IMG/VR virus record: IMGVR_UViG_3300047496_000172
Coordinates: 1-64,000 of that record
Length of the DNA: 64,000 nt
Origin: a virus
Reading direction: 5' to 3' (one strand)
Under the pieces are notes generated by a model. It made no database searches and was not told where the DNA came from. It worked only from the letters and a program-made list of their open reading frames with translations. Each line of letters starts with the position of its first letter. The first letter of the stretch is position 1. Below are positions 23,023 through 42,176 of the stretch, in pieces. The translations under genes and the position numbers were made by a program.

Positions 23023-24108
23023 TCAAGAACCAAAACCCATCATTTTCAAAAATGCTTCTAATCCTGGAACCTTACTGAACATAGACCTAATATGTGGCTG
23101 TTTCAACATTTCCTTGAAGTATTCCTTATTCCCAATAAGATATTTAATAGATTCTCCGGTATCTTCGTAATTAAATTTCATTCCACCGTCAGGCATAATA
23201 TCTGGCTTATGACCACCAAAAACAGAATCAGGAATAGTTGCTATAATGGCTTTAATAAAAAGACCGGCCCCCGGAAGTTTATGCGGAGCAATCATGCCAC
23301 ATTTTTTAGATATCGCAGCCAGCGCCGCCGAAACTGCTCCCCAAATGGGACCACCTTCTGCTTGAAGTTCAGCAAAGCCTTTCAGAACCGATCTAAAATC
23401 ACCAGCCGTAGCTACCAACTTTTTCATTCCCGATGCTTGAACCCGGACAGCGACGAAACCTTTTTCATCCCCATAGAACGTCCAATCTCTGGCGCGAGAC
23501 ATAAGCTTATCGTAACCCCAACTTGACCCCGTTTCCTTTTCATAACTCGTCTTGAAAATGTGATAGAAAGATTGAAGGTCATGCACGTCCCGAATGTGAT
23601 AGGATTCATCTAACTTTTTCTCATCAATAGATGCTGACCAATTCTTTTTTATCGGAGAAAATTTTTCTGGACCAAGTTTAATATTACCTTCATACGGTTC
23701 TATATCAGACAACTTCAAATCTTTTGGAAGTCCATCATAAGAAATAGTTATATGAGCCGACAATTTTGAGTAATCGCTAGTAGCACCAAATTTATCTATG
23801 AATTCATGCCAACGATCATCCAATTCTTTACTCTCAAAAGTTAGAACTACGGCATCTTTATCGTCACCAAATAATTTTATGGTCCGTTTTCCCCCTTTGA
23901 TGATAAGTTTTTCTTTATTTTCTTCTATTTCATTCCAATCTATTTTAGTTTTAGAATAAACAATCGTTACATGCATATCATCAGAGACACAAGATGTAAA
24001 ACCTTGTTCCTTTGCCCATTTCACAATATCTTTACCATTCAAAATATCACGCTTACAATAAAGCGTTTCCATTTTGATTGTTTCTTCAAATAATTCAATA
24101 ATTTTCAT
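23023..24108 (-). CDS. 2H-phosphoesterase-like protein with capsid-targeting-like leader
   Basis: Protein of 361 residues. Leader MKIIELFEE fits a T4-like capsid-targeting peptide with an L-F-E cleavage site. Residues about 15-165 carry two H-x-[TS] motifs, MHVTIVYS and AHITISYD, with LYCKRDILNG upstream, which matches phage 2H phosphoesterases related to the anti-CBASS nuclease Acb1. Residues about 170-361 form a second domain (GDEKGFVAVR, FGGHKPDI) I recall only as a phage-specific module. The ATG overlaps the ART-like gene by 14 nt. A cyclic-oligonucleotide substrate is inferred, not shown. Confidence 0.7.
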   Translation of the reverse strand: MKIIELFEETIKMETLYCKRDILNGKDIVKWAKEQGFTSCVSDDMHVTIVYSKTKIDWNEIEENKEKLIIKGGKRTIKLFGDDKDAVVLTFESKELDDRWHEFIDKFGATSDYSKLSAHITISYDGLPKDLKLSDIEPYEGNIKLGPEKFSPIKKNWSASIDEKKLDESYHIRDVHDLQSFYHIFKTSYEKETGSSWGYDKLMSRARDWTFYGDEKGFVAVRVQASGMKKLVATAGDFRSVLKGFAELQAEGGPIWGAVSAALAAISKKCGMIAPHKLPGAGLFIKAIIATIPDSVFGGHKPDIMPDGGMKFNYEDTGESIKYLIGNKEYFKEMLKQPHIRSMFSKVPGLEAFLKMMGFGS

Positions 24109-25678
24109 AACTCTTTCTAATCACGTGCTTTATATCTGCAACGAGATATTCTTTATCGCGAGTTGATAACTTTTCGTATATATTTAGTTCATCTTCTAAT
24201 TTATAGTCTAAATATCCATTGAATGATAATCCGCTGTTAACTGCTAACCATCCAACAAATCTCTTCCAAACATCGTCACCATAAAATTTAGGACGATACC
24301 AAGTTTCGCTACCATCTTGGCGAACCCAAAGCTGCTCTGCGTTTGATAACGATTCTAGAAAATAAGTCAAAGTATCTCTGGAACAACCACGATTATAAAA
24401 ATCATATACTTCATTATTGTTACCATAAGAAATCACTTGATCATTTATTTCTAATCTAACTGAAACGTTAAAGTAAGTCTTATAAATATTATAGTATACT
24501 ATAGACGTTACTTTTATACCATCCACATTTTTTTCATATAAACCTCTAATTCTCATAGAGGCATACTTTTTATCGTCTCTATATAACTCATTAGAGACAT
24601 CAGTATTCCATTTTACTGTTGCGTTAGGTTCAAAAAATCTATCTTCTCCTAATTTAATTGCTTGATCTTGGGATATTATAGGCTCAAACAACAAATCAGA
24701 TTTTAGAGCAACAACGTTTTCTATACGATTTTCGATATATTCTATTAAATGTTCAATAGACATCTCACGCATCATTTTAGATGGAATACCAAAACTATCA
24801 GTTGACCTACCATAAATAAAATCGACATGTAATCCGGAATCCCATTTGTCATTGTACTCCATTCGAAATTTTTTATCATCGATTTCGAATAACAAAATAG
24901 GGCGTTTCTTATCCCATTTGATATAACCTTTATATTGTTCAGCAAGTAGTTTCATGATGTTGAGTACAGCGACTTTCCACTCTTCCCAATTTGACTGATC
25001 CGCAAACGACGATACCTCCTTTCGCTTTGTATGGACATTACTATCAACAATCTTGATAATTTTAGTATTCAATACCAATATTTGATGAGGTTCATAGTTA
25101 TAGATAACGGAATTATTATCATCGTAAATATATGCTATGTTTTTCAGAGATTGAGCCCATGACATGATTTTATTCTTTTGCATAAGATAACAAAAAGTCC
25201 AAAGAGCACTTGCTGGACTATCTGGCTTAAAATGTGCAGGAAATGTTAGTTCAGCCTTATAGTGATTACCCTTCAAATTTTCAGTTGGAAGAAACAATTC
25301 TCCATTATCATAACGATCAACTTGAGCCCAAATATCAGCCCAACCATTCATTTTAGATACGCGATTAAAATCATCCCAATTAAATGATGATAGAACTATA
25401 CCTGGACTACTGAAATCTATACTAACAATAAAATAGTAAGGAAATTTTACTCCAAACTGATTACCACTTTTTACGCGGTCGCTATCATTATGGAGAAGCC
25501 AATTTGTTGGATAAAAATATATCCCATGGGGATCATTGTGGTGCTTCTTGGGATTTATTCCAAGCTTAGGAATATGAGAAAAATGAATGAACTTACCGGG
25601 ATATTTTTTAAGAACTGGAATGATAGGACTTTTGTCATACCAATTCAATTCGGTCAAAATTTCCATAAATTCGCGCAT
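24095..25678 (-). CDS. ART-like protein 1 with capsid-targeting-like leader
   Basis: Protein of 527 residues. Leader MREFMEILTELNW ends in L-T-E. Residues about 25-200 share a pattern with the protein at 33622: HFSHIPKLGINPKK, then PHGIYFYPTNWLL, which resembles ADP-ribosyltransferase-fold polyvalent proteins of phages. The remaining 300 residues are unrecognised. A GATAAATA box ends 5 nt before the ATG. The catalytic Arg/Ser/Glu set cannot be fixed by eye, so ADP-ribosylation is a hypothesis. Confidence 0.55.
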   Translation of the reverse strand: MREFMEILTELNWYDKSPIIPVLKKYPGKFIHFSHIPKLGINPKKHHNDPHGIYFYPTNWLLHNDSDRVKSGNQFGVKFPYYFIVSIDFSSPGIVLSSFNWDDFNRVSKMNGWADIWAQVDRYDNGELFLPTENLKGNHYKAELTFPAHFKPDSPASALWTFCYLMQKNKIMSWAQSLKNIAYIYDDNNSVIYNYEPHQILVLNTKIIKIVDSNVHTKRKEVSSFADQSNWEEWKVAVLNIMKLLAEQYKGYIKWDKKRPILLFEIDDKKFRMEYNDKWDSGLHVDFIYGRSTDSFGIPSKMMREMSIEHLIEYIENRIENVVALKSDLLFEPIISQDQAIKLGEDRFFEPNATVKWNTDVSNELYRDDKKYASMRIRGLYEKNVDGIKVTSIVYYNIYKTYFNVSVRLEINDQVISYGNNNEVYDFYNRGCSRDTLTYFLESLSNAEQLWVRQDGSETWYRPKFYGDDVWKRFVGWLAVNSGLSFNGYLDYKLEDELNIYEKLSTRDKEYLVADIKHVIRKSYENY

Positions 25679-25683
25679 TCGGG

Positions 25684-25691
25684 TATTTATC
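25684..25691 (-). promoter_or_regulatory. Late-type box for ART-like protein 1
   Basis: GATAAATA on the minus strand ends 5 nt before the ATG at 25678. Confidence 0.65.
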
Positions 25692-26058
25692 GATAAACTG
25701 TTAACCCAACAACTTTTTCAAAAATACATTTGTGTCTATGATAGAATCTTATCACACCCTCTGCCGAGTTTTCATAATAAAGTGGAATTCCAAATATAGT
25801 TCCAAAATATGTACCAATAAATACATTCATATTAGAAAAATTCATCTCGTGCGTATAGTAATATGGCGTATCATTAATATTAGATTGTTTTCTAAGTATA
25901 TTATAAACAAAAAAGGATATAGTTATATATTCAAAAAAATTATTCTCTGATATTTTGTTTTTAATAATATTTAATATCTCTTCTTCTTTCATGAAGATTT
26001 CTTTCGAAGTCAGTAGGATGGATTGAGATTGATGAACTCTCCTAACTACTTTTTTCAT
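25687..26058 (-). CDS. Hypothetical protein
   Basis: Protein of about 123 residues rich in Ile, Asn and Tyr. The ATG at 26058 overlaps the stop of the family gene at 26055. An internal start at MKEEEIL is also possible. Unrecognised. Confidence 0.5.
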   Translation of the reverse strand: MKKVVRRVHQSQSILLTSKEIFMKEEEILNIIKNKISENNFFEYITISFFVYNILRKQSNINDTPYYYTHEMNFSNMNVFIGTYFGTIFGIPLYYENSAEGVIRFYHRHKCIFEKVVGLTVYR

Positions 26059-26276
26059 GACCATTTCATTTTGAAATAAATCATATCAGTAATACTATCG
26101 AATTCTACAAAATTGTTTTCATAAGAAGCGCGATATTCAGTCTTTAAAACATCTTCAATCAGCTTTTTACCTTCTATTGTAGAATTTTTGTTTATTTCTT
26201 TAACGAAATTTATCCAAAAGAATGAACAAGCATGAAGCGTTGTCGCTAATTTGAAACCTATACGTTCGTCATTCAT
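26055..26276 (-). CDS. Small protein of the FKMKW family
   Basis: Protein of 73 residues ending in ITDMIYFKMKWS. The N-terminal WC motif is replaced by a HACSFFWINF stretch, so it is a divergent member. Overlaps the macro-domain gene. Function unknown. Confidence 0.6.
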   Translation of the reverse strand: MNDERIGFKLATTLHACSFFWINFVKEINKNSTIEGKKLIEDVLKTEYRASYENNFVEFDSITDMIYFKMKWS

Positions 26277-26730
26277 ATGGAATCTGTGCTCCATTCAAAT
26301 ATACGACCGGCTGGAAGTTGGTCGATTCTTCTTCGATAATTTGACTGATAATTTTCCACGAACCATTTGCTAACCCTGCGCCAATAAGAGGAAACGCAAT
26401 CGGGTCAGGAATGATCCGATTCATCTCTTTAACGGCAATACGGATAGCGTCATAGGCCACATAGACAATATTTGGGTTTCGACCATAATATTTTTGAGAA
26501 ATGACATTTAACAGCACTCTTCCATCGCAATCCACTGGAATTATTTGACCTAATTCAAGATGATTGCCTTGATCAACATAAATTTTATGGTATTCGTCAA
26601 AAACATGCGGCCACTTTTCTCTAATAATCTTGGCCAGACCGCTATTTTGAACGCCGCGTGAATTGCAACCTTGCACAAAATAATGTTCATTACATTCTAG
26701 CAAATCACCGGATTTATAAACGATTTTCAT
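26269..26730 (-). CDS. Macro-domain protein
   Basis: Protein of 153 residues, the size of a single macro domain. The N-terminal GDLLECNEHYFVQGCNSRG and the later PLIGAGLANGSW loop are the ADP-ribose-binding signatures. Such domains remove ADP-ribose from proteins or hydrolyse ADP-ribose-1''-phosphate, the latter fitting the phage RNA ligase and tRNA repair. The macro domain lies in the same neighbourhood as WGR, SLOG and ART-like genes. Confidence 0.85.
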   Translation of the reverse strand: MKIVYKSGDLLECNEHYFVQGCNSRGVQNSGLAKIIREKWPHVFDEYHKIYVDQGNHLELGQIIPVDCDGRVLLNVISQKYYGRNPNIVYVAYDAIRIAVKEMNRIIPDPIAFPLIGAGLANGSWKIISQIIEEESTNFQPVVYLNGAQIPYE

Positions 26731-27317
26731 AATCTTCGCATTTCATGATAATCATAAACATCCGTAGCATCCTCACCATATTGCATTTTAGCATAGATCA
26801 AATCTTCTTCCGACGAAAGAAGAAGAAATGTATAGACACTATTGACTCTAAAACCTAAAGAAGAAGTTTTCGGATTTATCCTTCTTACACCATGTCCAAT
26901 CTTACATTTTGTAGCTATACCTAACGGTTTTTCATGATGATTTTCAGCTATTAGAATATATTTGAACACATATCCGGATTTAACTGAATTTTTTATAAAA
27001 GAAATTTCGTCATTTCTATTCAATTTCCAGTAAGGTTCATTAAAAACCTTGTAAACAAATTCCTTAAAATATGTAAAATCAAACGCCGTATTAGGATATC
27101 GAACAACCTCATGAATTTCTATTTCGAGTATTTCAATAATTGGCCAATTCCCTTGAGATAATAAACTATATCTTTCAAGGGTAGGTAATGGATTTTTGGC
27201 AAACAATTGAGGACGTTTAGTAAATTTCGGATAAGGACCACTAGAACTCCAATTCCAATCATATCCTATGAAATCTTCCCCCGTTTGGGCATTACACACA
27301 CGAAAATATTTTGTCAT
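26727..27317 (-). CDS. Hypothetical protein with an AKMQY motif
   Basis: Protein of 196 residues. The segment EEDLIYAKMQYGEDA near residue 175 resembles the F-K-M-x-W signature but is followed by 18 further residues. Host-type promoter upstream. The N-terminal VCNAQTGEDFIGYDW is not assigned. Confidence 0.6.
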   Translation of the reverse strand: MTKYFRVCNAQTGEDFIGYDWNWSSSGPYPKFTKRPQLFAKNPLPTLERYSLLSQGNWPIIEILEIEIHEVVRYPNTAFDFTYFKEFVYKVFNEPYWKLNRNDEISFIKNSVKSGYVFKYILIAENHHEKPLGIATKCKIGHGVRRINPKTSSLGFRVNSVYTFLLLSSEEDLIYAKMQYGEDATDVYDYHEMRRL

Positions 27318-27324
27318 ACCTTTT

Positions 27325-27352
27325 TATATCGAACGGCATCCTATTTTGTCAA
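27325..27352 (-). promoter_or_regulatory. Host-type promoter for the 27317-25687 gene string
   Basis: On the minus strand TTGACA and GATATA are separated by 16 nt, 8 nt before the ATG at 27317. Confidence 0.5.
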
Positions 27353-27357
27353 GTTCG

Positions 27358-28701
27358 TTAAAGGCGCAACCTCCAATAACCAGGGCCATAAACACCATCA
27401 AGTGCGAGCATCCATTCACTGCCCGTCCACTTAAGTTGCCGCCCACTTTGTAAGTTTACGACATATTGCGGCGGGCTACCAAAAGCCGAGAAACTAACAA
27501 CCCATCTTGATAGCGATACATTATACTGAATTATGTCTCCATATCTAGCTGATAATGTTCCCCAGGCAACACTATTTCCTATATCATGCACAAGTAAATA
27601 TCTTTGACCATCTACCGCCGCTGGTAAACTACCATCTCCTGGATAATTTAAAACTGGATTGATAATCGCGTTCACTGCTGGTAAAGTATTAGCTGGAAGC
27701 GTTGAAGGATCAATTTGCCATAATAAATTTAAAGCATTTGAAGGATCAATTTGAAACGTTCCCGTTACGCCTGGACCATTTATATCTGTCGTAGTCAGCA
27801 AAGTTAATTCACTTGACGATGGGCGCAATTCACCATATTGTTTTAAGAACGTACTCCATACATAGGCATTACCGGTAGGATCAGTTTGTCCTTCTTTTTG
27901 AATATATGTTATAACTCCGTTTGAAACTGATATGTGTTGTTCTTCTGGAGTAACAATAATTTGAACATAAGTATTCCCGGCATGAGAATCATAAATTAAT
28001 CCTGGAACGCGTGCAGTATCGTTTATGTTCGTAATGATTTGGTTAATTATTTTTTGTTGTTTTATTTTTGCTGGTGGAGAAAGCCAAATTGGAATACGTA
28101 AAGTTATCGTCATAACATCAATTTCATCAGACGTTCCTATTGGAATAGAACGAGAAGAATAATTTATATCTTCAACATAGGCTGTAGTTAAAGCCGACCA
28201 GTCAAGTGCATTTTGGCTATTTTGTATGTCAAAAGAAGGATATATTGCTGTAAGAATTTGTTCACTCAACTGATATTTTTGACTTAAATTTGAAGTCCAA
28301 ATATCAATTTGAATTTTCATTTCAAATGGTAAAGGCATAATCCGATCAACCGTATATCTACGACCATCGTTCTCAGTATAGATATTATTGACAATTTCTC
28401 GTTCCACCACTTGACGAGAATCTACATAGCTTCTGTTCTGCAATCTATCTGGAGTACCAGTTAAAGCAGTTTGCCAAACGGTAATCATTGGAACCGTCAA
28501 TAATGTATTTTCCGATTGATTTCGCATGATATTAGCTACAACTCTATTAGTAGTAGCCATTCGACATGGAACGAGCATTTCTACCGGAGGATTCCCTCCA
28601 CTACTACCGGTTTTATATTGAAAACCAGAAAATCCGCGTATTATCTGCTCAAGAAATCGTTCTTGCTGGCGATCATAAAAATAATCTATATGTTGTATCA
28701 T
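27358..28701 (-). CDS. Tail sheath stabiliser/completion protein, T4 gp15-like
   Basis: Protein of 447 residues. The N-terminal DYFYDRQQERFLEQIIRGFS, the MPLPFEMKIQIDIWTSN strand and the later DINYSSRSIPIG with TITLRIPIWLSPP follow the order and spacing of T4 gp15, which caps the tail tube and sheath. The C-terminal 170 residues are an extra domain compared with T4. A CATAAATA box ends 5 nt before the ATG, typical of the late genes here. Confidence 0.8.
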   Translation of the reverse strand: MIQHIDYFYDRQQERFLEQIIRGFSGFQYKTGSSGGNPPVEMLVPCRMATTNRVVANIMRNQSENTLLTVPMITVWQTALTGTPDRLQNRSYVDSRQVVEREIVNNIYTENDGRRYTVDRIMPLPFEMKIQIDIWTSNLSQKYQLSEQILTAIYPSFDIQNSQNALDWSALTTAYVEDINYSSRSIPIGTSDEIDVMTITLRIPIWLSPPAKIKQQKIINQIITNINDTARVPGLIYDSHAGNTYVQIIVTPEEQHISVSNGVITYIQKEGQTDPTGNAYVWSTFLKQYGELRPSSSELTLLTTTDINGPGVTGTFQIDPSNALNLLWQIDPSTLPANTLPAVNAIINPVLNYPGDGSLPAAVDGQRYLLVHDIGNSVAWGTLSARYGDIIQYNVSLSRWVVSFSAFGSPPQYVVNLQSGRQLKWTGSEWMLALDGVYGPGYWRLRL

Positions 28702-28706: not shown

Positions 28707-28714
28707 TATTTATG
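28707..28714 (-). promoter_or_regulatory. Late-type box for the gp15-like gene
   Basis: CATAAATA on the minus strand ends 5 nt before the ATG at 28701. Confidence 0.7.
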
Positions 28715-28759: not shown

Positions 28760-29407
28760 ATGAAAAAAACTAAACCATTAGCCAACCGCGCCGCAAAGCG
28801 TATGAACAACAACTATACCGGAACGGTGTTAAAAGTATCACCAAATTATAACCAAAATAATTCGCCAAATAACGCCGTTGGTTCGTGTAGTAATAGTGGA
28901 TCACAATATGGCGGCAAAAACACAACAATATCTCCTAACAAAAAATATTTAGCTATGGTAGTACAAAGAGTACATGGTGGATGGGGCTATGTAAGAACAA
29001 ATACGCATTGTTTAGATGTAACATCAGAACCCATATTATACTTAGAAGAATACGGAAATGAACTTATTGAATTATGGAAACGAGTGGTTATAGATAACGC
29101 AATCCCGTGGGAAGATAGTGTTCGGTATGAAACTTTGCGAATTGTTAAATATTCTTCTAATATTGAAGATAAGACTTTAGAATTACTTGGTGATTTTGAT
29201 CAAGCAAATGAGATTATTAGGCGTTCTGCGGTGTCGAAACTCACTGCGATGGAATCTAAATTGTTAGGATTAGATTTTCACAAAACCAAACAAATAATGA
29301 TGTCTAATTCTGAGTTTGATATTAGTGCTAAACAAACATTAAATACTTTAAGTAAAACTTCTGCGCATTTGACATTAGAATTACAATTAAAAGACCTAAT
29401 TAACTAA
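28760..29407 (+). CDS. Hypothetical protein inside the structural region
   Basis: Protein of 215 residues on the plus strand within a minus-strand structural block. The N-terminus is basic and Asn-rich (low complexity to about residue 55), followed by a helical domain. It has no ribosome-binding site; an AATAAATT sequence abuts the ATG. A DNA-packaging or head role is possible but no motif supports it. Confidence 0.6.
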   Translation: MKKTKPLANRAAKRMNNNYTGTVLKVSPNYNQNNSPNNAVGSCSNSGSQYGGKNTTISPNKKYLAMVVQRVHGGWGYVRTNTHCLDVTSEPILYLEEYGNELIELWKRVVIDNAIPWEDSVRYETLRIVKYSSNIEDKTLELLGDFDQANEIIRRSAVSKLTAMESKLLGLDFHKTKQIMMSNSEFDISAKQTLNTLSKTSAHLTLELQLKDLIN

Positions 29408-29949
29408 ATTCTTTGAATAGTAAATAAACTATTTGTTTTTGATACAGTTGGTTGACCTTCTACAACTGTAAAAGGAATATTTCCTACATTTCTGTTTCGT
29501 TTCTGACGACATGCTTCGATATATTCTGATTTTGTCGCGGAACGAATAAATCGAGAATTATTGAAACGTTTATCGATATTCCGAGAAAAAATTGTATCAA
29601 TCCAAACCCCGCCGGATGCTGGAAACCACACCAAGGCCCCAGGCTTCATTTCTAGGCCGCCTCTATCTAAAGAGATATATCCATCATCCAAATACTCACG
29701 AATGGTTCCAGCCTCATCAGGAATATAAGAATCAATAATATTAGCGGCAATGAACGATTCCATCTTCTTATAATTTATTTCATCATTTCGTTGCTTTTTA
29801 AGTTTTTTTAAAGCTAACCGATACCATGGAAGAGGTACTTGAACGGTTTCTAAATAATCGTCAGATATAGAACCTATATTATCAACTAAAAGACGAATAT
29901 CTGGTTTTCTTGTGGCTTCATAAAGCAATAAATCTATTTGTGATCTCAT
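29404..29949 (-). CDS. Hypothetical structural-region protein
   Basis: Protein of 181 residues directly after the gp14-like gene (start overlaps its stop by a few nt). Central GALVWFPASGGVWIDTIF suggests a beta-rich fold. No T4 counterpart recognised. Probably a tail or head-completion protein by position. Confidence 0.6.
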   Translation of the reverse strand: MRSQIDLLLYEATRKPDIRLLVDNIGSISDDYLETVQVPLPWYRLALKKLKKQRNDEINYKKMESFIAANIIDSYIPDEAGTIREYLDDGYISLDRGGLEMKPGALVWFPASGGVWIDTIFSRNIDKRFNNSRFIRSATKSEYIEACRQKRNRNVGNIPFTVVEGQPTVSKTNSLFTIQRI

Positions 29950-29950: not shown

Positions 29951-31228
29951 TTAATCAAATGCTACTGCATTCCCAACCGCTTCTATAGTACCATAAGAAT
30001 TTGCAAAAGACATTCCACCCGCAGACACATTACTAATATCAGTGATTGATCCAACACCGGAGAACAATACTAATCCGGCACTTTCTGCTTCTCCGTCATC
30101 TTCTATATCACCAATAGCCGGAATAATATCCGCCATAGCAGGTTGCGTTAAAGTTATACCACCATAATTTTTATTAATGGCAACCGCATTCGAAAGACCT
30201 TGCTTTTGTGGAATTACAGTACCATCTGAAAATTCAGTATTATTATCGTTATTGATAAAATCATGAAGTAGACGATTTGCAACCGACCATTCTTGTTGAC
30301 GGCGGTCAAATTCTTGTATTTGCCAGCCATTTATAACTCGTTTGAAAAGAGTTGCTGGAGAATAATCAGTTCTTAAAAAATAATCTCCAACGGTTGGTGA
30401 TCCTGGGAAAGAGGTTCCTTGAGACAAAAGTTGACCATTAGGTGGAATGCCATCTGAAGCAAATACCCATGGATATTCTGAGCCCAATTCTGTTCCTGGC
30501 ATAATCCAAAATTGTTGCGTTTCAAAATAGCGATATTTAAAATTAGCAACCGCTGCATCTACAACAGAATTATTGATGCCTTGCTCAGTAGCAAGCGTGG
30601 ACATAAGACTTCCCAGAGTCCCTACATCATTCAGTCCAAACGGATCAGTGGCTTGTTGATTTAGAATATCAGCAAATTCCTGACTTGCAGTCATGGGAGA
30701 ACATTTAATTCGCCAAATATGTTGGAACCAAGTAGAAGAATAACCATCAGTAGCCCAGCTACCTTCATCTACAACAAAAAATGCATTGATGGCGGGAGCA
30801 TCACCTGGAATTTGATCGTCTCTACGGTGAGGAAGTTCAATAACATCTCCAGCAATAATACGACGACCGCACGCAGCAACCATATCATTTAAATGTATTT
30901 CTAAAAATAAAGTATCATCCGTAAGAAAAATACCAAATTGTTTCATATCAAAACTTATATCTTGTACGTTATAAGTTCCTCTTAATTCTCTAATGCATGG
31001 ATCATATTTACGATCTCTGTTTTCAAGAAATAACGTATCTTGAATACTCGAAATACCGCCAGCCATAATCGCTCCATTAGCGGCCGCTTGATCATAAACT
31101 CCCGCATACAAATGGACATATACCGCTGTTCCAGAAACATACATGAACCGAGAAATATTTTTATCCATGAAATTATAATTTTTACCGTGGCGAGCATTAA
31201 CACCATGCCATAAAGCCAATTTAGGCAT
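29951..31228 (-). CDS. Neck protein, T4 gp14-like
   Basis: Protein of 425 residues. The middle part follows T4 gp14: FGIFLTDDTLFLEIHL, an IIAGDVIELPHRRD turn, then AFFVVDEGSW and a later HIWRIKCSPM. gp14 connects the portal vertex to the tail. The second half is Gly/Ala-rich and longer than in T4. The ATG overlaps the end of the J-domain gene. The gp13- and gp15-like genes are within 4 kb, which supports the assignment. Confidence 0.65.
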   Translation of the reverse strand: MPKLALWHGVNARHGKNYNFMDKNISRFMYVSGTAVYVHLYAGVYDQAAANGAIMAGGISSIQDTLFLENRDRKYDPCIRELRGTYNVQDISFDMKQFGIFLTDDTLFLEIHLNDMVAACGRRIIAGDVIELPHRRDDQIPGDAPAINAFFVVDEGSWATDGYSSTWFQHIWRIKCSPMTASQEFADILNQQATDPFGLNDVGTLGSLMSTLATEQGINNSVVDAAVANFKYRYFETQQFWIMPGTELGSEYPWVFASDGIPPNGQLLSQGTSFPGSPTVGDYFLRTDYSPATLFKRVINGWQIQEFDRRQQEWSVANRLLHDFINNDNNTEFSDGTVIPQKQGLSNAVAINKNYGGITLTQPAMADIIPAIGDIEDDGEAESAGLVLFSGVGSITDISNVSAGGMSFANSYGTIEAVGNAVAFD

Positions 31229-31871
31229 GTTGTCCACCGCTAATCTTATCTAATAATTCTGGTAATTTTCGAACAAATTGTTGATCGTTTCCAGGATTCA
31301 AATTAAACGAGTCATGCTCAAACATTATTGGAGGATGGCTCATTTTTCCATCCAAATATATCAACTCTAATTCTGTAGTCATATGATGGTATTTAGAATG
31401 AACAAAGATAGCCCTGCAATTAAACAAACGATCTTCCCAAATTTTCATAGCTTCTACCATTTCATCGAATATCTCTGGACATCCAAATACAGTGATACAA
31501 TTTCTGAAAAAATAACCATCAAAATTCCAAATAGTATATTCGGCTCTTCCTTTTTTACCAAGAGATAATTCATCCATCTTTTCTTGAAAGTAATCCGAAT
31601 GATGAAAATTCTTACCAAATGTCGATTTTTTAGGAATTGATACTTGAGGATTAGCTTTTGTCAAAATATCGGTAGCATCACTTATTTCTTTGAAAATTTC
31701 AGAATTTCCACCCATATCGGGATGGTGCTTTCTAGCAAATTCCTTAAATTTCTGCTTAATTTGCTCTGGCGTTTTATTCCTTGCATCGTATCCGTATTTT
31801 CGAAATACCGCTATAGCTTGAGGCACAGAGGTTGCCTCCATAACAATGTTGATAAAATCACGAATATTCAT
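31221..31871 (-). CDS. J-domain protein with capsid-targeting-like leader
   Basis: Protein of 216 residues. The leader MNIRDFINIVMEA matches the T4 capsid-targeting pattern with V-M-E before Ala. A J-domain follows (about residues 20-80) with the invariant HPD in FARKHHPDMGGN, so it could recruit host DnaK. The C-terminal 130 residues are unrecognised. A GATAAATA box ends 5 nt before the ATG, so it is a late gene. Packaging and delivery with the DNA is inferred. Confidence 0.75.
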   Translation of the reverse strand: MNIRDFINIVMEATSVPQAIAVFRKYGYDARNKTPEQIKQKFKEFARKHHPDMGGNSEIFKEISDATDILTKANPQVSIPKKSTFGKNFHHSDYFQEKMDELSLGKKGRAEYTIWNFDGYFFRNCITVFGCPEIFDEMVEAMKIWEDRLFNCRAIFVHSKYHHMTTELELIYLDGKMSHPPIMFEHDSFNLNPGNDQQFVRKLPELLDKISGGQHA

Positions 31872-31876: not shown

Positions 31877-31884
31877 TATTTATC
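31877..31884 (-). promoter_or_regulatory. Late-type box for the J-domain gene
   Basis: GATAAATA on the minus strand ends 5 nt before the ATG at 31871. Confidence 0.7.
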
Positions 31885-32441: not shown

Positions 32442-32493
32442 CTAAAGCTACTGATGCCAGTCGCCCCCCAACTGTGCATCGGTAGCTTTTTTA
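32442..32493 (+). terminator. Rho-independent terminator
   Basis: AAAGCTACTGATGC pairs with GCATCGGTAGCTTT and is followed by a T run. It lies 65 nt downstream of the RMF/AT-hook gene and overlaps the end of the convergent gene at 32491. Confidence 0.85.
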
Positions 32494-32982
32494 ATTTTGC
32501 ATTACCATGTTTATATCGTCAATATAAGCATCCCCATTTACTGGAAATAATATCATTAGACCGTCATTGACGGTAAATCCTATTGGAAAATCTATAAATA
32601 TTCTGGCAAATATAGGATTTTGTTTAGCTCTTAACCAATCAGAGTGATTTAATTTAACCAATTCATCTAAACTATTTTCAGATGCTATACCATTCCCCCA
32701 AAATAAAACGTGTTCAGTATTTGCCCAACCTTGCATTGTATTTTCCGGAAAATTAACACCAAACAAATTTCCAGCATCATTGACCAGATCGCCATGCGTG
32801 GAATGCCAGTGATTTCCCATAAGCATATGACGATCACCCACAATGATCCTTGCTTGTTCGCTTTCAAACGTTTTTATAAACGAATTGAACTGATGCCGCG
32901 TTGGATCAAGAATGATAGGCGTTTTACCTCCATCTCTTAATTCAATCATCTCTACCTTTTCTAATAACTCTATGAAGCGCAT
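32491..32982 (-). CDS. Hypothetical protein with capsid-targeting-like leader
   Basis: Protein of 163 residues. The leader MRFIELLEKVE has the L-L-E cleavage pattern. The rest contains HWHSTHGDLVNDAGN and a VLFWGNG segment but no family I recognise. A GATAAATT box ends 5 nt before the ATG, a one-base variant of the late box. Probably a packaged head protein (inference). Confidence 0.6.
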   Translation of the reverse strand: MRFIELLEKVEMIELRDGGKTPIILDPTRHQFNSFIKTFESEQARIIVGDRHMLMGNHWHSTHGDLVNDAGNLFGVNFPENTMQGWANTEHVLFWGNGIASENSLDELVKLNHSDWLRAKQNPIFARIFIDFPIGFTVNDGLMILFPVNGDAYIDDINMVMQN

Positions 32983-32987: not shown

Positions 32988-32995
32988 AATTTATC
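32988..32995 (-). promoter_or_regulatory. Variant late-type box (GATAAATT)
   Basis: GATAAATT on the minus strand ends 5 nt before the ATG at 32982. Confidence 0.5.
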
Positions 32996-33609: not shown

Positions 33610-33617
33610 TATAAATA
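33610..33617 (+). promoter_or_regulatory. Late-type box for ART-like protein 2
   Basis: TATAAATA, a perfect T4 late consensus, ends 4 nt before the ATG at 33622. Confidence 0.75.
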
Positions 33618-33621: not shown

Positions 33622-34818
33622 ATGGATATTTTTGAGTTATTTGATTCGCCAGTTCAGACTAATCTGAAGCCAATAAAACGTAAAGCTTATAAAAAATTTC
33701 TTGCTGGAGAACGCGAAGACAATTTCCCTAAGAAATTCGTTAGAAGATTCAAAGTAGATAATAAATCATATGTTATATATGTTAACAACATTGACTTAAA
33801 TAGTTATGATATACAATATGCTTTAGTTACAAACAGAAAAGAATTTGATTTAAATTATTCTCCAACTAATGATAATAATAAAAAACATACTTTAGAAGTT
33901 TTTCATCATGTGGCCGCATACTTAAAGTTTTTCTTCTCTAAATTGAAACCCAATAAAAAATATACCATCACTTTTGGTGGAACGGTTTCGGATCAGCAAG
34001 ATTTATACAGAATCGCTGTTAGATATCTCAAAAGAATAGTTCCACCAGGATATGAAATAACATCTGATGATCGTAAGGTAACTATTACAAATAAAAACAC
34101 AATGGTTGAAACTACTTTGACTGAATTACGAAGAAATCCTGAATTAAATAAAAAACTCACGGTATTTGAACAACTCAGTAAATATGCTGGACAAAAAGAT
34201 GTGTTCGTATCTTTTACTGAAAATGTAGGAAGAATGAGTCATCCAACTGATTGGTCCCTGGATATGAAACAAAAGTCTTCAAATACTCATGGTCATAAAA
34301 TTGGTATAAATCCAAGATCAAATTGGAAATATGCTCCTTATGGGATTTTTGCTTATCCTATAGATTATGTCTTATCACAAAAGGGGGACATGCCGTTCGC
34401 GGCAGGAAGACCTTATCTTTATGTGTTTAAAGCTATAGGCAATTTTATTGATATAGATGCCTATAGTTATGATGATTTAGAACGAGATTCAGAAAAATTG
34501 CCTATGTTTGGTATTAATAGAAATGAATTTTTGAAGAACGCTATCGGGTTACCGGCAAAATATTTGTTTTTTAATTGTTTACGCAAACTTGTTACTAAAG
34601 AAAGTAAAAGTCGTTATTCTTCTACTACTATAGACACAATAGCATGGTCTAAATTAATCAGACAATTAGGTTATGATGGTATATTAGATTATGGTGGATA
34701 TAATATAACTCCAGATATAAAGGCACAAGCAGTATTTTTTACAATAAAAAGTATTAAGCCATTAGAGGTGATAGATAACAAAACTCACTGGCTTGGCCGC
34801 AATGGTGTAGATAAATAA
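33622..34818 (+). CDS. ART-like protein 2 with capsid-targeting-like leader
   Basis: Protein of 398 residues. Leader MDIFELFDSP resembles the T4 Alt leader as I recall it and has I-F-E. An N-terminal domain to about residue 185 is unrecognised. Residues about 190-390 align with the N-terminal domain of the protein at 24095: GHKIGINPRSNW, then PYGIFAYPIDYVL, and end with a YDGILDYGG segment. The pattern suggests an ADP-ribosyltransferase-like fold. Late box directly upstream. Probably a packaged protein delivered at infection (inference). Confidence 0.55.
   Translation: MDIFELFDSPVQTNLKPIKRKAYKKFLAGEREDNFPKKFVRRFKVDNKSYVIYVNNIDLNSYDIQYALVTNRKEFDLNYSPTNDNNKKHTLEVFHHVAAYLKFFFSKLKPNKKYTITFGGTVSDQQDLYRIAVRYLKRIVPPGYEITSDDRKVTITNKNTMVETTLTELRRNPELNKKLTVFEQLSKYAGQKDVFVSFTENVGRMSHPTDWSLDMKQKSSNTHGHKIGINPRSNWKYAPYGIFAYPIDYVLSQKGDMPFAAGRPYLYVFKAIGNFIDIDAYSYDDLERDSEKLPMFGINRNEFLKNAIGLPAKYLFFNCLRKLVTKESKSRYSSTTIDTIAWSKLIRQLGYDGILDYGGYNITPDIKAQAVFFTIKSIKPLEVIDNKTHWLGRNGVDK
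34810..34817 (+). promoter_or_regulatory. Late-type box for the gp13-like gene
   Basis: GATAAATA ends 5 nt before the ATG at 34823, inside the end of the preceding gene. Confidence 0.7.
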
Positions 34819-34822: not shown

Positions 34823-35584
34823 ATGAATACTCAAACGCCTCGTCAAAAACTTATAAGTCAAATACATACGGCTTTAGGTGGTAATATGCTTGAAATTGAT
34901 CTTGAGCCATCGGATTATGATTATGCTGTTGATGTGACTCTAGATCGTTATCGCCAAAGATCAGGAAATTCTATAGAAGAATCCTTTATATTTTTGGATG
35001 TACAACCGGAAGTTTTTGTTTATACGCTTCCACAATGTGTACAAGAAGTTAAATCAGTTTATAGAAATGTTATTGGAAATTCTGGAGGAACAGCTATTGA
35101 TCCATTTTCCTTAGGATTTACAAATAATCTTTATCTTTTGCAAAATCCCGGTGGAATGGGTGGTTCTGGCGCAGGCCAATTAGCGACATATGATTATGCC
35201 ATGCAATTCCAAAATTTAGCCGCAAAAATGTTTGGTAGAGACGTAACTTTTACTTGGGATACATTTTCTAAAAGATTGACATTTCATCGTAAGTTCGTCG
35301 CGGTTGAACAAATTGCTTTACATGTTTATAACGAACGTCCAGAAGAAATTTTAATTCAAGACGTCTATTCACGACCTTGGATTCGTAGTATGGCAATCGC
35401 ACAAGCAAAAATGCTGCTAGGTCAAGCACGTTCTACCTATGGTTCAATCGCTGGTCCACAAGGCGGAATAACACTCAATGGCGATTCGTTGAAAACAGAG
35501 GCTCAAGCCGATATGGACAAATTAGAAGAAGAATTGAAAAACCTTATAGACCAACGCGAAGGATATGGCTTCGTAGTGGGCTAA
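34823..35584 (+). CDS. Neck protein, T4 gp13-like
   Basis: Protein of 253 residues. The pattern RQKLISQIHTALGGNMLEID, then DYDYAVDVTLDRYRQR, matches gp13-type neck proteins of T4-like phages (helix, 'LG.P..EI....D...D.A...Y'), followed by the expected beta strand and a QEVKSVYRNVI segment. gp13 with gp14 completes the head for tail attachment. Late box immediately upstream, no ribosome-binding site. Confidence 0.75.
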   Translation: MNTQTPRQKLISQIHTALGGNMLEIDLEPSDYDYAVDVTLDRYRQRSGNSIEESFIFLDVQPEVFVYTLPQCVQEVKSVYRNVIGNSGGTAIDPFSLGFTNNLYLLQNPGGMGGSGAGQLATYDYAMQFQNLAAKMFGRDVTFTWDTFSKRLTFHRKFVAVEQIALHVYNERPEEILIQDVYSRPWIRSMAIAQAKMLLGQARSTYGSIAGPQGGITLNGDSLKTEAQADMDKLEEELKNLIDQREGYGFVVG

Positions 35585-36916: not shown

Positions 36917-36921
36917 CACCT

Positions 36922-37293: not shown

Positions 37294-37451
37294 TGTTGGA
37301 GACATTAGAGGGTTCTTCAGATCAACAAGATTATTCTGCCCCGCTTACCAACATAACAAGCATGAATGCAACATTTACTATTCCATTCACCAGCATGGTT
37401 CAAGGAGGCGACGCTAATAATGCGGCCTTTTTTGATTGGAGATGGTTTAGG
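37293..37451 (+). CDS. Small fibre-module fragment
   Basis: Frame of 52 residues starting at ATG that overlaps the preceding stop (TAATG). The segment DYSAPLTNITSMNATFTIPF resembles the repeated YSGPI...IP...AKFEYH strand of the fibre proteins at 52200 and 53012. Probably a remnant or a coupled small structural gene. Confidence 0.45.
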
Positions 37452-37515
37452 CGCGACGAGCGAACTTAGTGTGGACTTGACTTCTTTTTCGGTTTGGAAA
37501 CTTTCATAATATAGG

Positions 37516-37543
37516 TTGACAGTATGTTGAACTATGTTATCTT
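37516..37543 (+). promoter_or_regulatory. Host-type promoter for the UPF0114 gene
   Basis: TTGACA and TATCTT separated by 16 nt. The leader to the ATG at 37666 is about 115 nt and has AGGAG. The leader also holds a short frame from 37546 that I do not call. Confidence 0.7.
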
Positions 37544-37665
37544 GGATGCATAATCATCATTCGGATAAGGGAAATCTTCCTACTCCGATTCATATTGATG
37601 AAAACGATTTTCGTAACGCTGATATTATGTCAAGTGCGCCATGATCACTTTTAATAGGAGACAAC

Positions 37666-38244
37666 ATGCAATCGAATAAGGTCGTCAAGAGAATTGAAAA
37701 AACGGTTTTTGCCGTTAGATGGATGCTTATGCCGCTCTATGCAGGGCTGGTTGTAGCTCTTGGCTTGTATATCGCGCATTTCATTCATGAAGTTGTCGAT
37801 ATGTGCGACAATTTTCTCTACAACTACAGTCAACAAAATGTGCTGATGCTTTTTTGTCTTGAACTGGTCGATATGGTGCTGATCAGTCAGCTTATCGTGA
37901 TGACCATCCAGGGTGGATTTTCTATCTTCGTCAAGGAATTCGACTATACTTTGACCGGCCGCCCCCGTTGGTTGAATGCCAGTTTTGGATCATCCGAGCA
38001 AAAGATCAAGCTTGGGATGAGTATCATGGGGATCATGGTTGTCCACTTTCTGAAAGATTTCATTGAATCAAAGCCTCTTCAGACCGAATTGATGAACCAA
38101 CAGGTCATTCTTTTGGTTTGCGTAACCGGGGCAACTTTGGCTTTCTGTCTCTTTAATATTCTGATGCATCTTCCGATGCTGTCTCATCATGATCCGGAGC
38201 CGGTTCATACTTCTGAAAATGACCACGATACGGCTCATAAATAA
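37666..38244 (+). CDS. UPF0114 (YqhA-like) membrane protein
   Basis: Integral membrane protein of 192 residues with about four spans. The start RIEKTVFAVRWMLMPLYAGL and the internal GRPRWL are typical of UPF0114. Family function is not established, though it is linked to membrane stress in bacteria. The C-terminus is a His/Asp-rich polar tail. It precedes the TerD-like gene, another stress-type function. Confidence 0.85.
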   Translation: MQSNKVVKRIEKTVFAVRWMLMPLYAGLVVALGLYIAHFIHEVVDMCDNFLYNYSQQNVLMLFCLELVDMVLISQLIVMTIQGGFSIFVKEFDYTLTGRPRWLNASFGSSEQKIKLGMSIMGIMVVHFLKDFIESKPLQTELMNQQVILLVCVTGATLAFCLFNILMHLPMLSHHDPEPVHTSENDHDTAHK

Positions 38245-38268
38245 TTTTAGAAAAAGAAGAAAAAATTG

Positions 38269-38296
38269 TTGACATATGTTCCATAAAGGCTTACAA
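38269..38296 (+). promoter_or_regulatory. Host-type promoter for a micro-gene
   Basis: TTGACA and TTACAA separated by 16 nt, 19 nt before the ATG at 38315. Confidence 0.6.
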
Positions 38297-38314
38297 GTTA
38301 AATCGAAATGACGC

Positions 38315-38419
38315 ATGGATGTGCTTCCTTCTATTTTACTTTTGGAAAAAAATAGCTGTCCGATTTGTCATTTCATAAATGATTATTGTGAATTAAAAAC
38401 TAAAGTTTTGATATACTAA
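38315..38419 (+). CDS. 34-residue CxxC microprotein
   Basis: Encodes MDVLPSILLLEKNSCPICHF followed by NDYCELKTKVLIY. Three cysteines (CPIC plus one) suggest metal binding. It is bracketed exactly by its own promoter and a strong terminator whose stem begins at the stop codon, so it is a self-contained transcription unit. There is no clear Shine-Dalgarno sequence. Function unknown. Confidence 0.6.
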   Translation: MDVLPSILLLEKNSCPICHFINDYCELKTKVLIY

Positions 38420-38446
38420 GGCCGCGTTTGTCGCGGCCTTTTTTAT
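38418..38446 (+). terminator. Rho-independent terminator
   Basis: AAGGCCGCG pairs with CGCGGCCTT and is followed by TTTT. Directly at the end of the micro-gene. Confidence 0.92.
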
Positions 38447-38472
38447 AGAAGATAGAATGTGAGGGATTGATT

Positions 38473-40599
38473 ATGAAAGAATTAATTCAATTATTCTCGA
38501 TGGTGAACGTGGATTTCCCATCTGAGGTTCCTCACGTCCAGCCGAAGAATGTTTCTGCTTTCACGTTGGAAGTGGCTTCACTGGGCTACACGATGGACTC
38601 CGTTCTTATCTCTGCAATTTCTGGTTTGAATGATCAGTCGTTCAACAAAGTTCGTAAGGAACTTTTGAATACGCTTATTGATATAACGGGCTCAAACGCC
38701 AAGACTTCTAATGTGTTGTTTAACAAATTTCCATATGAAATTCCGTATCATCATGCCTATCTTATGGATAGAATTTTCAGTTATTTTGATAATATTTTTG
38801 ATATCAAACCAAATGATTATACGACCCTTTCATGTGGACATTTCGTAGATAATTCCAGATTTGATCTGAATGATTTTGGGGCTTGCCCTATTTGTCAGCA
38901 TCAAGTGGAAGGATTGGAATCTGTTGAAAATATCCAACACGAGTTTTCCAATATCACGCCCCTCAAGGTTCTAACTCTTGCAAATAAGAGACGCGTCGTA
39001 TCGTCGCTGTTGGCAAGAAATAGTTCATTGTCAGCCGTTGAAAAATCATTTCTCAACAAGTCTAAGGATGTATCTGGAGTTAAGAGACCGGATAAAGTTT
39101 ATCGTGAAAATTTGCCGTTTGTTCATGTTTATTTTAATGATGCGGTTTATACCGCGTCCCTGCTATCTGGAGCCACGGATGTACTGCGTATAGCTACGTA
39201 TATGTCTGATGAAAATGCTGATCTATCTTTGAAGGATAACGTTAAATTTAAATTTTCGACTTCTAAGAAGAAGCAACTTCTTATCCTTCTGGAAGGTCTT
39301 TCTTCATTAGAAGAAGACATGATGCGTCATCGTGAAAAGTGGCTACGGATCGGCGAAAAGTTAAATCCTAATACCGCTGAAAATAAGAAACGGTTCCCTA
39401 AGGTTTCTGAAGCTTTCAACAATCTTCGTAATAACGAAAAAAACATAACGACCTTCAATAGAACCGTGGAAACGGCTATTCGATCACATCGTTATGATGA
39501 TAATTTTTTGGCTACGCTGCAATCTCGTCCTTCTGAATTCATTCGTAGACTGGATACGCTTTTGCGTTATGCTGCGATTAAGGATTCAACCTTGGTTCTT
39601 TCGGCGTTGTCAAAGACTATTAAGGATGTTCCCACGCGTCTCCTTTTTGATACACTAAAGTATTTCGAATATCGATCTAATAATTTTGGCGAAGATCGCA
39701 TGTTCTTCCCTAAGGGCGCCTCTAACAAAGTTAAGATCATTCCTGAAAATAGAAAATCTATTTCACCGGACATTTTGATTACTTTGTTTGATGTATTTGA
39801 AAACGAAATTATGTCGCGTTTCAAGCGTGATATTTCGTTGAATGCGACGATCAACAATGATCTGAAGAATATGCTTTTGCCTTTTAATCGTAGGGGAGAT
39901 TCCTCTACGAATACAGATGTTATGAAAGGTTCTCGGTATTCTGTAAATCCAGAAGCCAAAGTTGTTCGCATGTTCATCTATTGGAAGTATGACACGGATA
40001 TTGATTTGTCTATGCTATGTCTTAATGACAAATTTGTTTATGTGGATCAAGTCTCCTTCACTAATACGGCATCGTCAGGAATTGTTCATTCGGGCGATAT
40101 TCAGCGTGCAATTAATGGTGGTTCTGAGTATATTGATTTTGATATTGACAAGCTACTATCTCGTAATATCAGATATGCATTGATGTCAATCATTTCATAT
40201 CGAGGATTGATGTTTAAGGCCATTCCAGAATGTTTTGCTGGTTTTATGGAACGCGATAGTTTGCGCTCTGGTGCAAAATATGAACCGCAAAGCATTGCGT
40301 TAAAGTTCGACGTCAATTCTGAATCGACTACACATTCTCCAATTATCTTTGATTTGTTGACTAAAGAATTTATCTTTGCAGATATTTCTGGCGGGAGATC
40401 ATCACATGGGTCTATGTTTTCGGATCATGGGAAATTTGCCAAGTTGGTCAAAAACCTTTTGACGCTTCCTGATCGTAAGCCCACTGCGTATGATGTTATG
40501 AGGCTTTTCGCTAAGGCTAATCATGATGCGTCGGCAAAAAAAGCAGAGATTTCTTCTTCAAATATTACTATGGAAGAAGTGTTGAAAATCATAGAATGA
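38473..40599 (+). CDS. Large protein with C-terminal TerD-like domain
   Basis: Protein of 708 residues. An N-terminal CGHFVDNSRFD...CPICQH segment (about residues 120-145) looks like a zinc finger. Residues about 345-480 follow a pattern seen in large TerD-family proteins: FIRRLDTLLR and MFFPKGASNK. Residues about 495-640 resemble TerD: YDTDIDLSMLCL, VHSGDI, YIDFDIDKLL and a FAGFMERD end. TerD proteins act in tellurite and phage-type stress systems and bind calcium. The acidic Asp positions for calcium are only partly kept. Start MKELIQ follows GAGGGA. Confidence 0.65.
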   Translation: MKELIQLFSMVNVDFPSEVPHVQPKNVSAFTLEVASLGYTMDSVLISAISGLNDQSFNKVRKELLNTLIDITGSNAKTSNVLFNKFPYEIPYHHAYLMDRIFSYFDNIFDIKPNDYTTLSCGHFVDNSRFDLNDFGACPICQHQVEGLESVENIQHEFSNITPLKVLTLANKRRVVSSLLARNSSLSAVEKSFLNKSKDVSGVKRPDKVYRENLPFVHVYFNDAVYTASLLSGATDVLRIATYMSDENADLSLKDNVKFKFSTSKKKQLLILLEGLSSLEEDMMRHREKWLRIGEKLNPNTAENKKRFPKVSEAFNNLRNNEKNITTFNRTVETAIRSHRYDDNFLATLQSRPSEFIRRLDTLLRYAAIKDSTLVLSALSKTIKDVPTRLLFDTLKYFEYRSNNFGEDRMFFPKGASNKVKIIPENRKSISPDILITLFDVFENEIMSRFKRDISLNATINNDLKNMLLPFNRRGDSSTNTDVMKGSRYSVNPEAKVVRMFIYWKYDTDIDLSMLCLNDKFVYVDQVSFTNTASSGIVHSGDIQRAINGGSEYIDFDIDKLLSRNIRYALMSIISYRGLMFKAIPECFAGFMERDSLRSGAKYEPQSIALKFDVNSESTTHSPIIFDLLTKEFIFADISGGRSSHGSMFSDHGKFAKLVKNLLTLPDRKPTAYDVMRLFAKANHDASAKKAEISSSNITMEEVLKIIE

Positions 40600-40980
40600 T
40601 TAAGAAAATATAGAAATAATTTTTCTTTTTATGCTGGCGGTATCCCAACCATTAGCAAATGCTTTTTCTACATTTTCTAACGCGGTTGATAGTTCTAATT
40701 TTTGAGTTTTGAGATACCGACGAACATCAAAAGCATTCTGCGGTGGTATGCTCAACGCTAAAACCAAAAATATATACGAAACATTACTTGGATTTGGTAC
40801 TTCTACTTTATTAGCGATAATGCTGGCGACCGCTCTAATAACTCTATGAGGAAGAATGAACATTGTAGCGTCTTGATCGTAGCCTTCAATATTTCTAAGG
40901 TCATAATCGTTTGTAAGAGATGCTATCGATTTTAGCATCGATAATCGAATTGTATTTTCAAATATATCGGTGATAAACAT
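40600..40980 (-). CDS. Hypothetical protein with capsid-targeting-like leader
   Basis: Protein of 126 residues, leader MFITDIFENT with I-F-E. The rest is mainly helical with no known motif. The ATG overlaps the stop of the zinc peptidase gene by one base, so the two are in one transcript. Possibly a packaged head protein. Confidence 0.6.
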   Translation of the reverse strand: MFITDIFENTIRLSMLKSIASLTNDYDLRNIEGYDQDATMFILPHRVIRAVASIIANKVEVPNPSNVSYIFLVLALSIPPQNAFDVRRYLKTQKLELSTALENVEKAFANGWDTASIKRKIISIFS

Positions 40981-42176
40981 TATCGATTAAGCTCTGCTTT
41001 AACAATGGCTAAATATTTTTTTGGATTATCAAAGGAATTATTTCCAAATTTGTTCTGAATATACATACCTTTTTCAAAAAGCTTTCCGTATTTTCCTACC
41101 CAAGATAAAAGGGTTTTTTTGGCGTCATCAGACGGATAAAGCCAGTTTAATGACATATAATTAGCCCAAGTTGATACCTGAATCCATCCATTATCAACGG
41201 CGGCTTCTAGTGCCATATTTTTTACTTCCCATCCATCATCCTCATGTTCTTCGCCATCGTCTAAATCAAAATGTTTCAATGCTATATCGGCATGATGTAA
41301 ATTTTGTTCATGATCGCACTCTAATATTTCTCCATTTTCTGTAATCCAAAATCCTCCTTTGGTATCGTTCAATCCTTCTGTGAGACCTTCAGACATCAAT
41401 TGACCGGTATCCATAATATTTGGATATTTTTCTTTCAACCATTCCCAAAGTTTGTAGAGACGTTTGTCGAAACGTTTTTTGGTTTCGGCTGTCATATGGT
41501 TCCGAAAATCTTCTCTGAAATCTATTAGAAAGTTTTTCTTGAAATCCTCGAACGTTCTTAACTTTCGTTTAGCCCCAATGCTTTTATCTATTATCAATTC
41601 TTTCATTACCGAATGCATTCCTTGTTGAAAAAATGCATTGAATTCTTTTGGACTGTTAAAATATTCTGTATTATTTTTTAGTTTTGGGCTTGAAAAGCCA
41701 TACGGAGCATTGCGATCAGATGTTTTTTGTCGTTTAGCATCAAAATAATGAATAAGCTCATGAACAATAGACGATCTATGACTGTCCGAAGTTTTCCATA
41801 TTAATTCTGTCTCATCGGCGATATCTTCCAATTTTATAGATGGTTTTGGCACAAATACTACTGTATATTCTATTCCATCGGTGTAGATCGCGGTAGTTAT
41901 ATATGCTTTGATGTTTCGAGAAGAATCATAAGACGGTCCTAAACCGATAAACAAATCCTTGTATTCTTGTGGTAACCCCAACTCTAATGCGCTAACAGCA
42001 TACACTTTGAAGTCATGATTTTTAGCATGTAGTGTTTTTCTACCCATTATCATTTTTATGGGTTTCTCTTCATTATTATCATGCATCCATTTGAAAAATT
42101 TGTAACATATCATCTCTGCTTTACGCAAAGATAAAATATCACTTTCGGCACTTTCAAAAATGTCATAGAGATTCAT
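40980..42176 (-). CDS. HEXXH zinc peptidase with capsid-targeting-like leader
   Basis: Protein of 398 residues. Leader MNLYDIFESAES ends in I-F-E before Ser. The zincin signature SSIVHELIHYFDAKR is at about residues 135-149; a third ligand cannot be fixed by eye. The C-terminal half has an acidic stretch and a Trp-rich end. AATAAATA ends 4 nt before the ATG, so it is late-expressed. It may be an internal head protease or a protease delivered to the host (inference). Confidence 0.7.
   Translation of the reverse strand: MNLYDIFESAESDILSLRKAEMICYKFFKWMHDNNEEKPIKMIMGRKTLHAKNHDFKVYAVSALELGLPQEYKDLFIGLGPSYDSSRNIKAYITTAIYTDGIEYTVVFVPKPSIKLEDIADETELIWKTSDSHRSSIVHELIHYFDAKRQKTSDRNAPYGFSSPKLKNNTEYFNSPKEFNAFFQQGMHSVMKELIIDKSIGAKRKLRTFEDFKKNFLIDFREDFRNHMTAETKKRFDKRLYKLWEWLKEKYPNIMDTGQLMSEGLTEGLNDTKGGFWITENGEILECDHEQNLHHADIALKHFDLDDGEEHEDDGWEVKNMALEAAVDNGWIQVSTWANYMSLNWLYPSDDAKKTLLSWVGKYGKLFEKGMYIQNKFGNNSFDNPKKYLAIVKAELNR

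Follow-up and report, generated by a model that had tools for sequence, protein, structure and literature searches.

A shared N-terminal leader on unrelated late proteins of a jumbo-phage relative suggests a large set of head-packaged, injected proteins

The viral record IMGVR_UViG_3300047496_000172 of IMG/VR is a genome fragment of 106,578 bp. In its first 64,000 nucleotides, hereafter the window, seven open reading frames (ORFs) between positions 23,023 and 42,176 encode unrelated proteins with similar short N-termini. The first-pass annotation of the window proposed that these N-termini are capsid-targeting-like leaders with an [ILV]-x-E cleavage site, and that the proteins bearing them are co-packaged in the head and delivered with the DNA, as in phage T4. 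All seven ORFs were found as open frames with the quoted N-termini. Six of them carry the proposed site, and the seventh (33622-34818) has LFD, with D instead of E.

Two of the leader genes form an operon on the minus strand. The first (24095..25678) encodes 527 amino acids, in which the leader MREFMEILTE, then LNWYDKSP, is followed by a body of unknown family with no Pfam or PHROG match. The second (23023..24108), which overlaps the end of the first, starts with MKIIELFE, then E. This protein had been called a 2H phosphoesterase and is here reassigned to Acb1 (PF23474, E=7.2e-33); the Acb1 domain occupies residues 15-159, directly after the leader (113.8 bits against a cut-off of 27), and a conserved C-terminal domain lies at about residues 166-360. 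The protein has two HxT motifs (HVT and HIT) and is predicted to degrade cyclic-nucleotide alarm signals. Also on the minus strand, 31221..31871 has the leader MNIRDFINIVME, then A, before a J-domain whose assignment held (PF00226, E=1.8e-7, 31.6 bits against a cut-off of 27.8), with the HPD motif in KHHPDMGG, and 32491..32982 (MRFIELLE, then K) encodes 163 amino acids with an unknown body and no family match in Pfam or PHROG. The only plus-strand member, 33622..34818, encodes 398 amino acids beginning with MDIFELFD, then S. A second minus-strand operon comprises 40980..42176 (MNLYDIFE, then S), a putative metallopeptidase in which the HExxH motif was indeed present as HELIH, and 40600..40980 (MFITDIFE, then N; 126 amino acids), whose unknown body has no family match in Pfam or PHROG. 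By contrast, the ADP-ribosyltransferase (ART)-like assignments of 24095-25678 and 33622-34818 could not be upheld, as neither the proteins nor their homologues had a Pfam or PHROG ART match. AlphaFold models of 33622-34818 (mean predicted local distance difference test score (pLDDT) 43) and 40980-42176 (39) were too poor and were not used.

A naive coding-potential caller chose later starts for four of the seven leader ORFs. The leader starts are backed by the spacing of late boxes (24095 and 40980) and by homologues (23023 and 40980); certainty is lowest for 32491 and 40600. Scanning the rest of the contig, outside the window, yielded three further leader genes, all late-boxed: 68963-69478 (MRDWINIINE, then A), 75001-75534 (MVSIFQYIVE, then A) and 86353-86892 (MRNWINIVE, then T). 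A neck-region gene with an ATG start, 29404..29949 on the minus strand (MRSQIDLLLYE, then ATRKP), is a doubtful candidate: one relative is similar at the N-terminus (MTRSLKELLLFE, then ATRKP), but the conservation continues into the body, and the 415-kb relative G1 (below) differs. A leader was also considered for 2065-2760 (MSIFDKIHDELFES) but rejected, as its homologue begins with a different sequence.

The neck protein of this phage (29951-31237) ties it to jumbo phages, with identities of 44% to Atu_ph07, 41% to Sinorhizobium phage Phosso, 36% to PA5oct and 35% to Salicola phage SCTP-2. Among viral contigs, it matches a 415-kb record (G1) at 66% and a 49-kb contig at 64%. G1 is a separate genome with 55% GC, and served as an independent replication.

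Near-identical leaders front unrelated bodies across several of these lineages. In Atu_ph07, gp206 (MSIRKFLNIINE, then SY) adjoins the S77 head protease, as does Phosso 329 (MSGPDLRKFMNILNE, then SF); nearly the same leader is found on a G1 protein (MSIRQFMNIIVE, then SY) and on the J-domain protein described above. Eleven consecutive Atu_ph07 genes, gp053-gp063 (L073:23485-34593), nearly all start with M[RK]Wx[QD]L[TN]E, and their leaders are 66% identical whereas their bodies are 27% identical. Most of these proteins have YRGM/YRGI motifs and by eye look ADP-ribosyltransferase-like. The Acb1 copies of our phage and G1 (MKIEDLFE, then A; HVT and HVS) are conserved in both leader and body, and both keep MKIxxLFE. 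The G1 homologue of 24095-25678 has a leader of its own, MADIRKFMDMLSE. In 33622-34818, about 150 extra residues separate the leader from the domain common to its relatives; in the alignment, one relative has the leader MRLVELFN directly before that domain. A Nudix protein of G1 carries MRIHDLFE, then A, and its PA5oct homologue is annotated without a leader. Genuine ART-PolyVal proteins with leaders occur in G1, and the leader-bearing proteins of the relatives include ADP-ribosyltransferases, a Nudix and a GNAT protein.

The leader is also conserved in the HExxH protein, which has no named family assignment and no solved relative. Leaders are present on its homologues in SCTP-2 (MKLEQLFE, then D) and an uncultured phage of 484 kb (MKLSNLLFE, then D). 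Against four distant homologues, at 25-28% identity, H139, E140, H143 and E178 are invariant, E178 being a candidate third ligand, and the leader residues M1, L3 and E8 are likewise invariant and thus as conserved as the HExxH residues. The HExxH gene of the 484-kb phage is one of several leader genes in a row; two members of this run have LWRGT or LYRGR motifs and by eye may be ADP-ribosyltransferase-like.

Single-protein scans of viral contigs with 23023-24108 and 24095-25678 gave no matches; Acb1 relatives in viral contigs were recovered with an alignment as the query instead, and a scan of genome contigs for Acb1 relatives found none. In most of the nearest relatives, found in phages and viral contigs, the alignment starts near residue 15, and almost all of them are domains at the C-terminal end of long ORFs (L155:1115-2962; L158-L184). 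In one ORF of Rhizobium phage RHEph04, a portal (PF06381, residues 43-388) is followed by Acb1 (462-607). Two unrelated arrangements, fusion to the portal and a leader, thus appear to place Acb1 in the virion, which suggests that its virion delivery occurs twice independently. Separately, the C-terminal domain of 23023-24108 is found again in a 737-amino-acid protein of a 735-kb phage (L156:2360-4573), joined there to a domain similar by eye to that of 24095-25678; in our phage these belong to two overlapping neighbour genes.

The first-pass annotation pointed to a gp21-like protease as the enzyme of leader removal. None was seen in the 106-kb record, which is a fragment, but three complete relatives, Atu_ph07, Phosso and PA5oct, encode S77 (gp21-type) proteases, as do hundreds of viral contigs. 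At the expected propeptide boundary of 72 major capsid proteins of the clade, P3 is L in 68 and P1 is E in 66, with a variable P2 and mostly A, S, N or T at P1'. This boundary, L-x-E, matches the L/I-x-E cleavage rule of T4 gp21 (PMC9026906). A small gene after the portal, at the position of T4 gp67, also bears a leader with a matching site: MKINDIITE, then GYYNP, in PA5oct gp333, which was detected in virions by electrospray ionization tandem mass spectrometry (ESI-MS/MS); MKLTELFNPLTE, then SYYDP, in Atu_ph07; and a leader ending in HLSE, then GFIDP, in Phosso. In Atu_ph07, 29 of the 46 products of coding sequences 31-76 were found in virions, although only two had been predicted to be structural (PMC6102473). 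The leader cluster gp053-gp063 falls inside this virion-rich block, a comparison made at the level of the block.

The head operon itself encodes some leader proteins, next to the protease and portal genes, and T4 gp67, gp68 and gp22 act as head-core proteins (PMC9026906). The leader proteins could accordingly serve assembly or stay structural, and never be delivered to the host. We regard this as unlikely: most of the proteins carrying leaders resemble take-over or counter-defence enzymes (Acb1, J-domain, ART-PolyVal, Nudix, GNAT), and their genes are accessory, differ between relatives and are dispersed over the genome. Even less probable is that the leader directs proteins to the tail, baseplate or inner membrane, the E being incidental. 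As a short hydrophobic segment, the leader does resemble a membrane anchor or an assembly helix, and the virion flags of PA5oct do not track it. However, the leader is missing from tail and neck genes that have a late box, the conserved x-E agrees with the capsid cleavage site, and the leader is present on proteins encoded beside the head protease.

Most of the leader genes are preceded by a TAAATA box. Five of the seven had been assigned a late box; four are exact and lie 4-5 nucleotides 5' of the ATG (24095, 31221, 33622 and 40980), and that of 32491 has one mismatch. On the minus strand, GATAAATA occurs at 25684..25691 and at 31877..31884, 5 nucleotides before the ATG of 24095-25678 and 31221-31871, respectively; the imperfect box GATAAATT at 32988..32995, 5 nucleotides before the ATG of 32491-32982; and AATAAATA at 42181..42188, before 40980-42176. 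The plus-strand gene 33622-34818 has TATAAATA at 33610..33617. The remaining two genes, 23023 and 40600, have no box of their own and come second in an operon, each after a leader gene that has one. Further TAAATA boxes in the window lie at 28707-28714 and 34810-34817, 4-5 nucleotides before an ATG. The spacing is general: 45 ATG-started ORFs of G1 lie 4 or 5 nucleotides past TAAATA, against 1.2 with shifted box positions (L015-L035), and in our own record the numbers are 15 and 0.8. A Shine-Dalgarno-like motif was found in 0 of these 45 ORFs of G1 and 1 of the 15 in our record, compared with 180 of 470 G1 genes overall.

The late box of T4 is located at -13 to -6. If the boxes described here, presumably late promoters, are placed likewise, transcripts would begin on the ATG, implying that late mRNAs of this phage and G1 are leaderless. 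No paper linking leaderless mRNAs with a TATAAATA late promoter was found in a literature search. Simple searches detected no T4 gp55-like late sigma factor in our record or in G1. Atu_ph07 has such a factor, and shows no TAAATA-to-ATG spacing of 4-5 nucleotides.

Since leader genes and late-box genes strongly overlap in the clade and the mRNAs look leaderless, the shared N-terminus might merely reflect leaderless-mRNA translation favouring certain first codons. This explanation is already disfavoured, and we consider it very improbable: other late-box genes have no leader; leaders are also present in SCTP-2, in the 484-kb phage and on Atu_ph07 genes with ordinary ribosome-binding sites; and codon selection would not fix [ILV]-x-E.

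To count leaders, we used a fixed rule (E at residue 7-14, a hydrophobic residue at E-2, a hydrophobic core and no P, G or C). This rule was composed after the finding had been seen, so that G1 provides the cleaner test. In our own record, 12 of 128 genes pass the rule, compared with 1.5% of internal windows (binomial p=6e-7), and it is satisfied by 6 of 17 late-box genes against 6 of 111 others (p=0.0013). In G1, which bears about 30 leaders, the corresponding fractions are 18/52 and 24/490 (p=1.7e-9). A matrix trained on the G1 leaders detected 15 leaders in Atu_ph07, where 1.1 were expected. Applied to T4, it placed gp68, gp21, gp24, IPIII and IPII within the top 19 of 261 proteins (p=2e-4), that is, 5 of the 10 known processed T4 head proteins. 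Although a pattern as short as [ILV]-x-E occurs often and the rule was written with the finding in hand, chance similarity picked by eye is refuted by this replication in G1 and Atu_ph07, and by the leaders retained in homologues at 25-28% identity, and has a negligible probability.

The leader, its modularity and its tie to late promoters can be read from the sequences themselves, as can the protease and the capsid site that match it in relatives. We therefore favour, with good confidence, the T4-type co-packaging proposed in the first-pass annotation, which is backed by the leaders in head operons, the capsid L-x-E, the Atu_ph07 virion block and the modularity of the leader: the shared N-terminus would be a capsid-targeting propeptide like those of T4, carried by an injected set of unusual size. 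According to this model, the leader genes would have T4-like late promoters of their own and be transcribed late; the hydrophobic leader of 8-13 residues would take each protein into the prohead core, where a gp21-type (S77) head protease would cut after [L/I/V]-x-E; and the mature proteins would remain with the packaged DNA and enter the next host alongside it. The cargo would be a take-over and counter-defence kit of Acb1, the J-domain protein and the putative metallopeptidase, with ADP-ribosyltransferases, Nudix and GNAT proteins in relatives. Packaging in the head is very likely, cleavage of the leader is likely, and injection is probable; that Acb1 acts on arrival is favoured more guardedly.

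Several observations weigh against this interpretation. The 33622-34818 protein lacks the cleavage-site E, and we infer the virion location of the leader proteins in this phage. No head protease was seen in our fragmentary record or in that of G1. Its absence from G1 carries little weight, as that record has no intact portal or capsid gene either: a search of it for intact capsid, portal and protease genes found none, and a capsid-gene fragment at 252032-252463 (L027:12032-12463) is joined into another small ORF, indicating that the record is incomplete or misassembled. Collapsing the paralogues of Atu_ph07 leaves a marginal enrichment (p=0.05), and the G1 matrix misses T4 Alt and IPI. Finally, PA5oct proteins flagged by mass spectrometry are not enriched in leaders (10/93 versus 17/237, p=0.2).

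Capsid targeting sequences and injected ARTs are already known (PMC3012670, PMC9026906, PMC9503650). The T4 internal proteins are diverse defence proteins with only such a leader in common, cleaved at L/I-x-E (PMC3012670, PMC9026906). As here, the gp21-processed T4 proteins IPI, IPII, IPIII and Alt have a hydrophobic N-terminal leader of ~10 residues on unrelated late proteins, and the T4 cargo comprises counter-defence proteins and an ADP-ribosyltransferase (PMC3012670, PMC9026906). According to an earlier suggestion, T4-like phages can load diverse proteins by means of the leader. However, T4 has four such cargo proteins, compared with at least 10 in the 106-kb fragment and about 30 in G1; the cargo here includes Acb1, a J-domain protein and a peptidase, the leader sequences differ, the late promoters are probably leaderless, and we infer packaging. 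ARTs, Nudix and similar enzymes have been predicted to be head-packaged and injected in contractile-tailed phages (Iyer, Aravind and co-workers; PMC9503650, PMC5512222). That prediction was drawn chiefly from gene neighbourhoods and domain fusions, whereas ours rests on a removable N-terminal tag common to separate proteins. The Acb1 of T4, 57B, and the portal-Acb1 fusions of Rhizobium, Pseudomonas and Synechococcus phages have the same PF23474 domain and two HxT motifs, but 57B has no [ILV]-x-E leader, and Acb1 is here a protein of its own, with a leader in front and an additional domain at the C-terminus. The giant phages SPN3US and phiKZ likewise package many ejection proteins cut by a gp21-like protease, although they belong to another lineage with other propeptides and other cargo (virion RNA polymerase, inner body).

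New features are the scale, the cargo and in particular Acb1, the presence in several jumbo lineages, and the link with late transcripts that are probably leaderless. It is reasonably probable that the clade has an 'injectome' of dozens of unrelated effectors, including pre-made Acb1, that is directed to the head by one family of removable leaders, expressed from leaderless late mRNAs and listable from the genome. Virion proteomes are difficult to interpret, and few of the proteins that giant phages deliver are therefore known; a sequence-readable leader, if the proposal is correct, would list the delivered set across the clade and point to counter-defence and take-over functions of the first minutes. 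A virion-borne Acb1 could then disarm the cyclic oligonucleotide-based antiphage signalling system (CBASS) ahead of all phage gene expression. As tags, the leaders might also serve to load proteins into very large capsids.

Elsewhere in the window, a T4-like neck and tail set includes a gp15-type sheath stabiliser (27358-28701) and a head-tail adaptor (34823-35584). An ADP-ribose-related macro domain protein (26269-26730, minus strand; PF01661, E=2.8e-5) adjoins leader genes and itself has no leader. ORFs 6533-8395 and 3846-6521 appear to belong to an ABC-transporter set (OmpA-like substrate protein, permease and ATPase) carried by a phage, and the ATPase looks intein-interrupted. Three neighbouring genes at 63058-68913 of the contig (L001:58-5913) resemble the bacterial PrkA-YeaH-SpoVR trio; the third appears to bear an intein, and a gene similar to the first is present in G1 at 319209.

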